Shown here: positions 22,821 to 26,982 of the stretch, in pieces
Layout of the letters: each line of letters begins with the position of its first letter
How positions within the stretch are numbered: the first letter of the stretch is position 1
Source: an uncultured Candidatus Saccharibacteria bacterium
GTDB taxonomy: Bacteria > Patescibacteriota > Saccharimonadia > Saccharimonadales > Saccharimonadaceae
Direction: 5' to 3'
Assembly (NCBI GenBank): GCA_946408595.1
Contig: CAMJSX010000004.1
Location: 1-58,759, forward strand
Length of the DNA stretch: 58,759 nucleotides
Notes under the pieces: model-generated
What the model was told of the DNA's origin: nothing
What the model saw: only the letters and a program-made list of their open reading frames with translations
The model's database searches: none
Position numbers and translations under genes: made by a program

Positions 22821-25778
22821 ATGGACGCAGTCATACATTTTATTCTAATGCCGATTTTCTGGATACCAGTAGTGGGGGTTTTGGCATATTTTACTTATCG
22901 CAATTATAAAAAACTCAATAAACTGAAGATTCTAAATGTAGACTCTGTGCTTTTGATGCTAGAAATTCCTCGCACCAACGACAAAAAAGAGCTCGCAGCA
23001 GAGCAAATGTTTGCCAGCTTGCATGGTATTTTACGTGATAAACAAGAGCTGAGAAATTCTGGTGGCGTGCAAGAACATTTGTCATTTGAAATTGTTTCCA
23101 CGTCGGGCCAAATTAGATTCTACGTGTGGGTGCCAAAGATTTTGCAAAGCTTTGTTGAGGGCCAAATCTATTCACAATACCCAACCGTCCAAATCTACAA
23201 AATGAATGAGGACTATGTAGATGCCCGTAATAAATACACTGTCAGTTACTCTGCAGAACTTGGGTTAATTGACAACGAAGCCCTGCCAATTAAAACTTTT
23301 GATACCTTTGAAGTCGACCCACTCGCCGGCATTACCGGGACTTTGGCGAAGCTAAGCCCAGAACAAACCGAAGAAATGTGGATTCAAATTCTTACACGAC
23401 CAATCCCAGATGATTGGCACAAAAATACTACTGACAAATGGGTCCGTAAAATTAAATCAGGCGGGAAATATTTATTTGGTGGGTCATTTGACTGGACTTA
23501 TGTTGCAGAAATATTCCTAGCTTTATTTAGGCCGCCAGCAGGAGGAACCACATCAGAAACTAAAGTAGAATTATCCGAACGAGCCAAGACTCAAATTAGC
23601 AAGGCCGAAGAAAAAGCCACTAAACTTGGCTATGAAGTAAAAATCCGTTTAGCATATCTTGGTCACAGTGACGTAGATGCTAAGCTCAACATGCAAGCGC
23701 TCGTAGGCTCCTTCAAACAGTTTAACTCAACTAATTTAAATGGTTTCAAACAAATCGGTGGCACATTTAGTCGCGACGCATTATCGGCTTATAAACTACG
23801 TGAGTTTGCTGATCGTGGTTTTATTCTTAATATTTCTGAATTAGCCTCAGTTTATCATTTACCACATACTTCAGTAGAGACCCCAAATATTGTGTGGGCC
23901 TCTTCTAAGACCGCCGAACCACCAGCCAAATTACCAGTCATAACTGGCAACGTTTCAGAAGATGAAAATATCTCAGCCTTTGGTCTCACGAATTTCCGTG
24001 GTATTAATCATCAATTCGGTCTGCTACGTCGCGATCGTTCACGTCACGTTTATATAATTGGTCAAACCGGCGCAGGGAAGAGCGGCATGCTCGAACTCTT
24101 GGCCCTCTCAGATATCTTTTATAATCAAGGTTACTGTATTATCGATCCGCACGGAGATTTCGCTATCGATAACTTAAAGTTTATCCCAGAATCGCGTATT
24201 CAGGATGTGGTATATTTCAACCCAGCAGATACAGCTTATCCAATCGCCTTCAACCCACTAGAAGTTTATGATCCAGCCAAAAAACCAAACGTCTGTTCAG
24301 AAGTAATTGGCGTTTTAAAAAGAATGTTTGGCGATTCTTGGGGTCCTCGACTAGAACACATTCTCCGCTATACCTTACTTGCTTTGCTCGACCGTCCAGA
24401 AACTACTTTACTAGACATTTCACGTATGTTGACGGATAAAGATTTCCGAAAAGAAACCTTGGATTATTGTCATGATGTCACAGTTTTGCAATTCTGGAAA
24501 CATGAATTTGGCCAATGGAATGATAAACAAGTTAATGAATCAATTGCGCCAGTTCTTAATAAGGTTGGCGCCTTCACGGCCAATCCAATCATCCGCAATA
24601 TCATTGGTCAACCAAAATCCTCCTTTGATATTCGCAAAATCATGGATGAAGGAAAGATCTTAGTAGTCAACCTATCAAAGGGCCTTATCGGCGAAGACAA
24701 CGCCGGTATTTTAGGCGCATTCTTAGTAACTAAAGTCCAACTCGCTGCCATGTCGCGTTCAGATATTCCAGACGTCAAAGATCGTCGTCCATTCTATTTG
24801 TATGTCGACGAGTTCCAAAACTTCGCCACAGATTCGTTTGCGGTAATTCTATCAGAAGCCCGTAAATATGGCCTAAATCTAACCGTAGCCAACCAATATG
24901 TCGCCCAAATGACTGAATCGGTGCGTGATGCAGTATTCGGCAACGTCGGTACCACCATTTCCTTCCGCGTGTCAGCCGATGATGCGCCAGTACTCGTCAA
25001 ACAGTTCGAACCAACCTTTGAAGAGTCTGATTTATTGCAACTTAACAACCGTCACTTTGTCATTTCAATGATTATCGGCGGCGAAAAAGTGCCAGCCTTC
25101 TCAGCTACTACTTTGTCAATTCCGGATTCACCATCAGACAACTTTGATGCCATTATTGACTATTCTAGGGCTCATTTCGCAAGACCACGCGCTGATGTAG
25201 AAGCCGAGATTCGTGAAACTATCGAACAGTCCGAGAAATACAAAAAAGAATTGTCGGATTCTGGACGACAGGAAGAGAAAACCGTAGTGTTTGCACCAAT
25301 TGCTCACGAACGTAAAACAACCGAACAAAAACCGAACTTAAAACGTCCTGAATCTCCGCAAGCAGATTTTCGTCGACAAAACTTGAGCCCAAATGAGGCT
25401 GAAGGCAAAGAAAAACTTGGTCTAAAAGATTTAGCCAGAGTCGTTGCAGAAAAAGAGGGAAAAGTTGTTGAAAAAGAAAACAAGAAGCGCGAGAAAAAAG
25501 GGAAACGTAAGCCAGGAAAAAAGGCACCAGAGGTAAAACCTAATGCTTCCCCTGTAGTTCCCGCCTCCATCCCTGTCAATAATGAGCCAACTGCCCAAGA
25601 AAACACTACAGTTTCCTCCCCTGTTAGACCAGAGGTAGTTTATGAAGAAAAAGAAGTAGTAGTGATCAACCCGTCTAAGGAGTCACTACCCCTGTCTACC
25701 CCTGTTAAAAGGACCGACAGATTCGCAGAAATCGATAATTCAGTAGATGGATTTTTAGCCATCAAACACGACAAATAA
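22821..25778 (+). CDS. VirB4/TraG-like membrane-anchored ATPase
   Basis: A 985-residue protein. One membrane segment at about 6-26 is followed by a domain of about 380 residues (FEIVSTSGQIRFYVWVPK), then a HerA/VirD4-superfamily ATPase: Walker A IIGQTGAGKSGM near 413-424, DPHGDFAIDNL, and a TraG/TraD-type YVDEFQNFATDSFAVILSEA near 658-677. The tail (about 800-985) is low-complexity and rich in Lys, Glu and Pro. Such proteins are common in Saccharibacteria beside type IV secretion or pilus genes, but none of those partners is adjacent here. A role in DNA or protein transfer across the envelope is inferred. The closely related HerA-like ATPase at 44996 lacks the membrane anchor. Confidence 0.8.
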   Translation: MDAVIHFILMPIFWIPVVGVLAYFTYRNYKKLNKLKILNVDSVLLMLEIPRTNDKKELAAEQMFASLHGILRDKQELRNSGGVQEHLSFEIVSTSGQIRFYVWVPKILQSFVEGQIYSQYPTVQIYKMNEDYVDARNKYTVSYSAELGLIDNEALPIKTFDTFEVDPLAGITGTLAKLSPEQTEEMWIQILTRPIPDDWHKNTTDKWVRKIKSGGKYLFGGSFDWTYVAEIFLALFRPPAGGTTSETKVELSERAKTQISKAEEKATKLGYEVKIRLAYLGHSDVDAKLNMQALVGSFKQFNSTNLNGFKQIGGTFSRDALSAYKLREFADRGFILNISELASVYHLPHTSVETPNIVWASSKTAEPPAKLPVITGNVSEDENISAFGLTNFRGINHQFGLLRRDRSRHVYIIGQTGAGKSGMLELLALSDIFYNQGYCIIDPHGDFAIDNLKFIPESRIQDVVYFNPADTAYPIAFNPLEVYDPAKKPNVCSEVIGVLKRMFGDSWGPRLEHILRYTLLALLDRPETTLLDISRMLTDKDFRKETLDYCHDVTVLQFWKHEFGQWNDKQVNESIAPVLNKVGAFTANPIIRNIIGQPKSSFDIRKIMDEGKILVVNLSKGLIGEDNAGILGAFLVTKVQLAAMSRSDIPDVKDRRPFYLYVDEFQNFATDSFAVILSEARKYGLNLTVANQYVAQMTESVRDAVFGNVGTTISFRVSADDAPVLVKQFEPTFEESDLLQLNNRHFVISMIIGGEKVPAFSATTLSIPDSPSDNFDAIIDYSRAHFARPRADVEAEIRETIEQSEKYKKELSDSGRQEEKTVVFAPIAHERKTTEQKPNLKRPESPQADFRRQNLSPNEAEGKEKLGLKDLARVVAEKEGKVVEKENKKREKKGKRKPGKKAPEVKPNASPVVPASIPVNNEPTAQENTTVSSPVRPEVVYEEKEVVVINPSKESLPLSTPVKRTDRFAEIDNSVDGFLAIKHDK

Positions 25779-25980
25779 GTAGAGAATTAAACCACAATTT
25801 AAAATAAATGCAGGCCAAAAGAAAAACTAGCGGGAGCTAGAACGTAAAGTCAATCGGCTTTCCACGCGAAGTGTAATGTCGCACAATACACATTTTACGA
25901 CATTAAGGATAAATCAAAAAGCCGATTAAACACCCGTCCAAGCATAAGCCCATATTCCCATAGCTCGTATATTTCCAGCT
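25779..25980. repeat. First part of gene-free block: nested hairpins
   Basis: No convincing ORF. CTAGC-ggga-GCTAG lies near 25827-25840. AATCGGCTTT (25852-25861) pairs with AAAGCCGATT (25918-25927), enclosing TAATGTCG (25874-25881) paired with CGACATTA (25898-25905). It lies just downstream of the VirB4/TraG-like stop. Confidence 0.7.
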
Positions 25981-26168
25981 AATGTGGGGGAATTGCGTGG
26001 GCCGTATGTACTTATTTATGAATCTTGAACAAGCCCAAGAGTTTAAAAATTATTTCACAGATTTGAATCCTATACTGATAATATAGGTGAAAATCTGCCT
26101 GAAATAATTTTTAAAATCCTGGCGCGCCGTGAATCAATTCATAAATAAGTACATACGCGCCCCACATT
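25981..26168. repeat. 188-bp nested palindrome between convergent genes
   Basis: Five perfect arms share one centre. AATGTGGGG (25981-25989) pairs with 26160-26168. GTATGTACTTATTTATGAAT (26004-26023) pairs with 26137-26156, 20 bp. TTTAAAAATTATTTCA (26042-26057) pairs with 26100-26115, 16 bp. CAGATTT (26058-26064) pairs with 26091-26097. CCTATA (26069-26074) pairs with 26082-26087 around CTGATAA. Between arms lie CTTGAACAAG and GGCGCGCC. No coding potential. Candidate cruciform, structured RNA or miniature mobile element. Confidence 0.85.
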
Positions 26169-26376
26169 CGCCCATGATCGCCCATTTTTTGCCTGATTTG
26201 CCCGGATTTTTGCGGATTTGACATTTCCCCGTTTTATTTCCCTATTTTACTTTTTTCCCTGTTTCCCTACTATTTTTGTATATATTTATTATTGAAAAAT
26301 TCCCATTTTCCGAACAAAAACCGAACAGAAGAGAAGAGAACAGTATCTAGAACAAAAACCGAACAATTCCCTGTTT
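26161..26376. repeat. 10-bp degenerate repeat, pyrimidine tract and direct repeat
   Basis: CCC recurs every ten bases from 26161 (CCCACATTCG, CCCATGATCG, CCCATTTTTT, GCCTGATTTG, CCCGGATTTT). Runs of TTTCCC follow to about 26270. A 16-bp direct repeat GAACAAAAACCGAACA sits at 26312-26327 and 26350-26365, just before the stop of the minus-strand ftsQ-like gene. No ORF is supported. Confidence 0.6.
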
Positions 26377-26982
26377 TTAGCGCCAATATGCCTGTCTTTC
26401 CAGGCGAACATCGATATATTGATACTCTTCAACACCTATACTGGCAAGATAACGGATCATTCTATCGGCATCCTCTACCGATACACCACTTCCTCGGTCT
26501 ATAATCATTTTAATGTAACCAGATTGACCTTCCAAATATAAATCTACCTCACGAATTACGCCCACTGGAATCACAGCCTTAACTGGCACGTAGCCGAGTT
26601 CACGAAAACACGCTTCGACTTGACCAATAAATTCCTTCATCCGGCTAGTCAAATGTTCTTCGTTTGTCAGGGATGACGCCTCATCAATAATTTCAATTGT
26701 TGGCGAAACTGGCACAATAATAGTATCCGAAGTCGGATCATTTTCATCATGACGGAAAAGTGGCAAAACTGCCAGAATAATAATTACCGCTACAGCCAAA
26801 AATCCCACACTCGTAAAAATAATACGAGCATTTCTTTTCGCCTTGTTCTTTTTATGTATAGCAGTACGTTCAGAAGCGGTCTCGAGCTTTTCCCTTTTTT
26901 CGCCAATCGTACGACCAGACTTCATCGTCGACTTACGATTTGCCAGACGGCGAGCTGGTTTAGGCGTTTTTTGCTCTTCCAT
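26377..26982 (-). CDS. ftsQ: FtsQ/DivIB-like division protein
   Basis: A 201-residue single-pass protein: basic cytoplasmic N-terminus (1-53), membrane segment near 54-73, and an outer domain of about 125 residues. The end, IRYLASIGVEEYQYIDVRLERQAYWR, matches the FtsQ beta-domain pattern in which an I/V-D-x-R strand closes the domain. The N-terminal POTRA part seems reduced or unrecognisable. It starts one frame unit after murG (TAAATG junction, no spacer), so translation is probably coupled. It is the last gene of the minus-strand division and wall cluster, the place FtsQ holds after MurG in the standard dcw order. No ftsA or ftsZ follows. Confidence 0.65.
   Translation of the reverse strand: MEEQKTPKPARRLANRKSTMKSGRTIGEKREKLETASERTAIHKKNKAKRNARIIFTSVGFLAVAVIIILAVLPLFRHDENDPTSDTIIVPVSPTIEIIDEASSLTNEEHLTSRMKEFIGQVEACFRELGYVPVKAVIPVGVIREVDLYLEGQSGYIKMIIDRGSGVSVEDADRMIRYLASIGVEEYQYIDVRLERQAYWR

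Follow-up and report, generated by a model that had tools for sequence, protein, structure and literature searches.

A candidate miniature mobile DNA hairpin with mirrored flanks beside a dif-like site in gut Saccharibacteria

What kind of sequence is the palindrome at positions 25981-26168 of the 58,759-nucleotide stretch of Saccharibacteria DNA analyzed here (hereafter the window)? The initial annotation described five perfect arms around a single centre, in a gene-free stretch between convergent genes, and left open whether they belong to a cruciform, a structured RNA, a miniature transposable element or a chromosome landmark. Both descriptive statements hold. The flanking genes end at 25778 and 26377, and the arms of 9 bp (AATGTGGGG, 25981-25989 with 26160-26168), 20 bp (GTATGTACTTATTTATGAAT, 26004-26023 with 26137-26156), 16 bp (TTTAAAAATTATTTCA, 26042-26057 with 26100-26115), 7 bp (CAGATTT, 26058-26064 with 26091-26097) and 6 bp (CCTATA, 26069-26074 with 26082-26087) are all present and share their centre. 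The palindrome folds far beyond chance, with z scores of -10.2 (plus strand) and -12.2 (minus strand) as RNA and of -11.0 and -12.3 for the two strands as DNA; none of 200 shuffled versions folds as well. At the base of the stem no T-run typical of an intrinsic terminator was found, the arms being followed by CGCCCATGATCGCC.

The palindrome is made of two nested parts, a hairpin unit of about 113 bp (26024-26136) and a locus-specific outer stem that encloses it. The view of a single palindrome is thus right about the arms and needs amending in two respects: the inner part recurs elsewhere whereas the 20-bp arm and everything beyond it belong to this locus, and the centre is not perfectly symmetric, with conserved one-sided bulges on either side. 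The unit, a member of the R1 family with tip type A, scores 135.5 bits against the R1 covariance model and lies on the plus strand, as assigned from the conserved asymmetric bulges; its ends were placed from the arms, with a possible error of a few bases. It is an imperfect hairpin, capped by a conserved tip loop, in which short GC clamps alternate with internal loops; some of these loops, judged by eye, could accommodate tandem G-A pairs. The two sides of the 16-bp stem form a covarying helix in an alignment of 52 sequences (A5). The apical part (26058-26097) comprises the 7-bp and 6-bp stems and the tip loop, conserved in alignment A3, and the same alignment shows conserved extrahelical bases, AA at 26031-26032 in a GCAAGCC motif and an invariant CC at 26098-26099 in a TCTGCCTGAAA motif. 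Outside the unit lie the two 20-bp arms, perfect complements of each other and unrelated in sequence to the arms of other copies, and then the outermost arm, which combines the 9-bp repeat with an asymmetric stretch on the 5' side (25981-26003) and terminates in CCCCACATT on the 3' side (26157-26168).

A DNA search found a diverged second copy in the window's genome (C1:61194-61293), flanked by genes that we take, from sequence recognition, to be khpB-like and lytR-like, and one copy in a relative. A motif search found nine copies, whose alignment and consensus fold yielded the covariance model of the unit. This model matches 96 of the 174 genomes of this gut Saccharibacteria genus, with 1-16 matches each, a range that includes a few matches from the second strand of the same palindrome (kept out of alignment A5 by E-value). 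Among 247 sampled genomes of the order, 12 carry matches and all belong to this genus; at 1e-6 there was no match in the roughly 220 sampled genomes of the order's other genera. Carriers are listed in public records as gut and rumen Saccharibacteria. An exact pattern run across GTDB returned 38 stretches, several of them in Saccharibacteria MAGs; the pattern is a loose one, and the stretches from other taxa appear to match it by chance. Two exact motifs gave no match in viral contigs.

These copies separate the unit from its arms. At another gene, in genome G070, a unit 91% identical to that of the window carries unrelated outer arms, and units at unrelated loci of one genome can be 96-100% identical while their arms, with an identity of about 0.5, are at background (0.50 ± 0.07). 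The boundaries of the unit between same-genome copies in relatives are abrupt. Since units are nearly identical and arms unrelated within a genome, it is the unit that travels, the arms being tied to the locus. The proposal of a miniature transposable element is accordingly upheld, in the sense of short, non-coding, dispersed copies that move as a unit, with sharp boundaries and empty sites, but no direct target-site duplication was seen. The concern that the palindrome might be solitary and its arms unconserved is answered by the second copy, by the many copies in relatives and by extensive compensatory change among the copies. We also observed, in genome G086 (L138-L146), near-identical longer copies in which the outer arms are identical too; several lie at contig ends, the left flanks are alike in some, and they were perhaps duplicated along with a repeated gene family. 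In G097 (C11, L129), fragments of hairpin units are found within a repeated array adjoining a full copy.

The compensatory changes bear on the level at which the stem is maintained. In alignment A5 (52 copies), 95.3% of about 2050 pair cells hold standard pairs, 38 of the 41 pairs change on both sides, and there are 435 double-change cells against 110 in shuffles. An RNA stem selected on one strand should favour G-U, which here is no commoner than A-C: the two are about equally rare in the unit core (21 against 25 of about 2050 cells) and close in the outer arms (42 against 34). This points to pairing at the level of DNA or to equal use of both strands, as function on both strands would yield the same outcome in this test.

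Where, then, do the outer arms come from? They are matched in all 59 copies examined, with a median length of 23 bp and a median alignment score of 19.5 against 6.0 for arms paired across loci (the weakest, at L151, scores 7.5). They are AT-rich, G-C making up 22% of pairs, and the GC stem of a terminator is often missing. Empty sites allow a closer look, with the proviso that the genomes compared are different species, mostly MAGs, and that the order in time of empty and filled states was set by parsimony. Between ldh and sbcB in G097, the ldh coding end CAGTAAAACTCTAACTGTTTTC is followed by a 123-bp unit, a mirror of that end (GAAAATAGTTAGAGTTTTACTG) and the sbcB end; all 11 empty relatives are without the mirror and without the hairpin. 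Removing the unit and the 22-nt mirror leaves an empty-like site, whose joined flanks equal the longest empty site (G051) in length to about a base. They can also be aligned with the other empty sites, of which several are shorter, by up to about 9 nt, and G091 by more. At this site, the only one reconstructed to the base, no direct target-site duplication was seen, and an inverted copy of the flank stands in its place. In G111, neither of the 27-bp arms at ldh matches the coding ends. At infA, empty spacers from the upstream stop codon to the -35 box measure 2-22 nt; in filled genomes 17-21 nt separate the unit from the -35 box, and a mirror of these nucleotides stands on the unit's other side. 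At ldh/sbcB and infA, the mirror copy seems to have been made by the insertion itself. Between rplU and parA, empty genomes carry a short intrinsic terminator of the AAAAATAAACCCGCAAGGGTTTATTTTTT type and filled genomes carry the unit inside a similar A/T stem, and at the L148 site of G068 an ordinary intrinsic terminator occupies, in empty relatives, the place that the outer arms take in filled genomes. At these last two sites a mirrored copy and an old right arm are indistinguishable, because the terminator is itself palindromic.

We propose that the window palindrome represents one copy of a miniature mobile DNA hairpin, about 113-130 bp long and inserted mostly at gene ends, and that some 20 nt of flank were inversely copied when it inserted, a reading that we consider somewhat probable. 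The unit would fold as single-stranded DNA, and a 3' end at a replication fork or nick would acquire it. The newly joined unit would then fold back, and its 3' end, through snap-back or template-switch synthesis, would copy about 20 nt of the flank just upstream before synthesis resumed on the normal template. Host flank, unit and mirrored flank would thereby become one long hairpin, whose arms repeated template switching might later keep matched. The proposal draws on the dispersed copies, the movement of the unit apart from its arms, the presence of arms in every copy, the lack of the mirror at empty ldh and infA sites and the DNA-type covariation. We infer the snap-back step, the participation of any enzyme and the idea that termination would be a tolerated side function. 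The terminators in empty relatives at rplU and L148 count against the proposal, as the arms may pre-exist there, and so do the unmatched ldh arms of G111 and the failure to find a mobilizing enzyme or autonomous partner among the Y1 and reverse transcriptase families. More tentatively, and with the odds in our view somewhat against it, this may be a new mode of DNA mobility, in which snap-back synthesis makes an inverted target duplication of about 20 nt, possibly without a dedicated transposase, and each insertion lengthens a palindrome.

The palindrome of the window has a particular setting. At 25877-25902, outside the element, the minus strand carries a dif-like site with the core TGTCGTAAAATGTGTATTGTGCGACA, contained in an inverted repeat (25874-25905); the site lies 75 bp from the palindrome and is single-copy in the window's genome. 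Allowing up to 3 mismatches, the repeat was found in 97 of 166 genomes of the genus, once each in nearly all (G047 has four); roughly one match per genome and a variable centre are what a dif site should show. Here the genes converge, and gene direction and GC skew both switch, and the window copy is probably at the replication terminus. The left neighbour (22821-25778, plus strand) encodes a TraG/VirD4-like coupling-protein ATPase (Pfam TrwB_AAD_bind, 2.4e-08), and the right neighbour (26377-26982, minus strand) a 201-aa membrane protein without a Pfam hit, which takes the place of FtsQ in a murG/ftsW cluster, the FtsQ-position, murG and ftsW names being given from sequence and position. From this gene to the hairpin runs a noncoding block (26180-26376 in the window) that is conserved in many species and contains GTTCGGTTTTTGTTC repeats in pairs, together with a stretch rich in GGGAAA (GGGAAATAAAACGGGGAAATGTCAAATC); these are possibly protein-binding repeats near the terminus.

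Four other explanations deserve weighing. If the unit inserted into the loops of hairpins that were already there, for the most part intrinsic terminators at gene ends, the arms would be old stems and no copying would be called for. The terminators of the empty rplU genomes, with the same kind of A/T stem in filled ones, and those at L148 are what this explanation predicts, and the window has native stems as long as 17-30 bp; it accounts for some sites, but it has to invoke a further event at ldh and infA, since the second arm is missing from every empty ldh/sbcB site and the empty infA spacers are too short for both arms, and the AT-rich arms often lack a terminator's GC stem. A stricter version, with insertion always in terminator loops, held at rplU and failed at ldh/sbcB and infA, and loop insertion was therefore kept as a rival, unlikely though far from negligible. 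Inverted flank copying on a hairpin, by comparison, fits the ldh, infA, rplU and L148 sites as one process. One might also think of a MITE mobilized in trans by a conventional transposase, for example a Y1 enzyme of the IS200/RAYT type. The unit is small, non-coding, dispersed and hairpin-shaped, and conserved one-sided bulges occur in the substrates of single-strand transposition. We nevertheless think this explanation rather unlikely: the Y1 transposase (PF01797) was found in 8 of 170 genomes of the genus, neither it nor the reverse transcriptase (RVT_1, PF00078) was found in G000, and the reconstructed ldh/sbcB site has no direct target-site duplication. Both enzymes were set aside as mobilizers on account of their absence from G000. 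Elsewhere in this small-genome genus the reverse transcriptase occurs in 95 of 170 genomes, in some with up to 5 copies.

A structured noncoding RNA or 3'-UTR regulator, its stem kept by selection on the transcript, would agree with the very strong conserved structure, the conserved tip and internal loops and the position at gene 3' ends, but not with the near parity of G-U and A-C, with the patchy presence of the hairpin or with the different families found at one site across species. Rfam 15 returned no family at its gathering score for the window palindrome and 12 loci with copies or other hairpins; low-score matches to plant miRNA families reflect hairpin shape only. The suggestion of a structured RNA is thus not favoured, and we regard it as improbable. 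The last candidate, a functional structure of the replication terminus linked to the adjoining dif-like site, has in its favour the single-copy site close by, the flip of GC skew and a hairpin of at least 35 bp on that side of the dif-like site in 12 of 18 species, compared with 4 of 18 on the opposite side. Yet the hairpin family varies by species (G070 has another one), several species have no hairpin there, and most copies are elsewhere in the genome; such a function is very improbable. We take the position beside the dif-like site as a slot near the terminus where insertion is tolerated and not as proof of a terminus function. The earlier idea of a chromosome landmark survives as a description of the context, with its dif-like site and its switch of skew and gene direction, and the hairpin itself is not the landmark.

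Insertion slots of this kind appear to change occupants. The slot between rarA and an ABC gene holds tip type A in G012, type B in G070, a decayed remnant in G114 and unrelated hairpins in others. The rplU slot holds at least five kinds of hairpin, counted by eye. Downstream of rplU (L164-L203), several other families sit at the position of the terminator; for example, one family has GTGGCATAATGAGATTTAGACC..AAGTCCAAGCCAC in G108, with similar ones in G091 and G100, another has ATTTGACAAACCCAGTTAATTTTTACAAC in G115 and G152, and a third has GACGGGTGACGCC in G071 and G173. In G070, the closest relative found, the window's own slot (L205) is not empty; it carries a hairpin of another family whose apical loop has itself received a further insert of about 80 nt, one insertion lying inside another. 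Several sequence-distinct hairpin families of the genus thus sit in the same kind of slot, as if sharing one insertion mode.

How does the unit compare with known systems? We know of no other bacterial mobile element with a mirrored-flank signature; to our knowledge, neither Correia/NEMIS, RUP, ERIC and Rickettsia elements nor the double-hairpin elements of fungal mitochondria have mirrored outer flanks, of about 20 bp in the fungal case. Integron attC sites are single-strand hairpins with conserved extrahelical bases and a variable stem, located at gene 3' ends, and the unit is alike in this. Unlike attC, the unit is dispersed and not arrayed, its outer arms are locus-specific, and by eye we saw no conserved R/L boxes in it. 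YPAL/RU-2 of Yersinia comes closest in size and shape and in favouring dyad symmetry: it is palindromic, intergenic and about 168 bp long, has empty and filled sites, and uses targets that span or adjoin dyad symmetry. YPAL, however, is described as duplicating 3-26 bp of its target (PMC2229807), whereas the unit shows an inverted copy of its flank. Correia/NEMIS, RUP, ERIC and Rickettsia palindromic elements are likewise small, non-coding, dispersed and able to form stem-loops, and most such bacterial MITEs have TA-ended terminal inverted repeats and target duplications (PMC2229807). For the unit, no partner IS was found in the Y1 and RVT_1 families that we counted. REP/REPIN-RAYT systems are also dispersed palindromic extragenic repeats, with REPs of 20-40 bp (PMC3116915, PMC3733652), and go with a RAYT-type Y1 enzyme in the genome, which G000 lacks. 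The double-hairpin elements of Allomyces mitochondria are, as far as they are cited in PMC7218506, optional at their sites and taken as mobile. In E. coli, quasipalindrome correction, in which a nascent strand copies its own fold, makes inverted repeats more perfect (PMC7202029). It would explain matched arms without a G-U bias. The process is known to mutate quasipalindromes that already exist and is not known to accompany the insertion of an element.

In the literature on palindromes, hairpins, terminators and MITEs of Saccharibacteria and Patescibacteria we found nothing matching, in a search of open-access sources that is weak evidence in itself; the mobile DNA hairpin of this genus is apparently undescribed. 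The results also carry a caution for the reading of alignments, in that very strong covariation can reflect arm matching at the level of DNA rather than a structured RNA, and the near-absence of one-sided G-U changes offers a simple test between the two. Should insertion indeed create the mirror, this would be the first case known to us in bacteria of an inverted target duplication, and it would tie mobile hairpins to template switching in replication. Saccharibacteria have tiny genomes and few recognized mobile elements. In such genomes, an element that over half of a genus carries, some members with as many as 16 matches, would contribute notably to change between genes and would give rise to new or altered gene ends.
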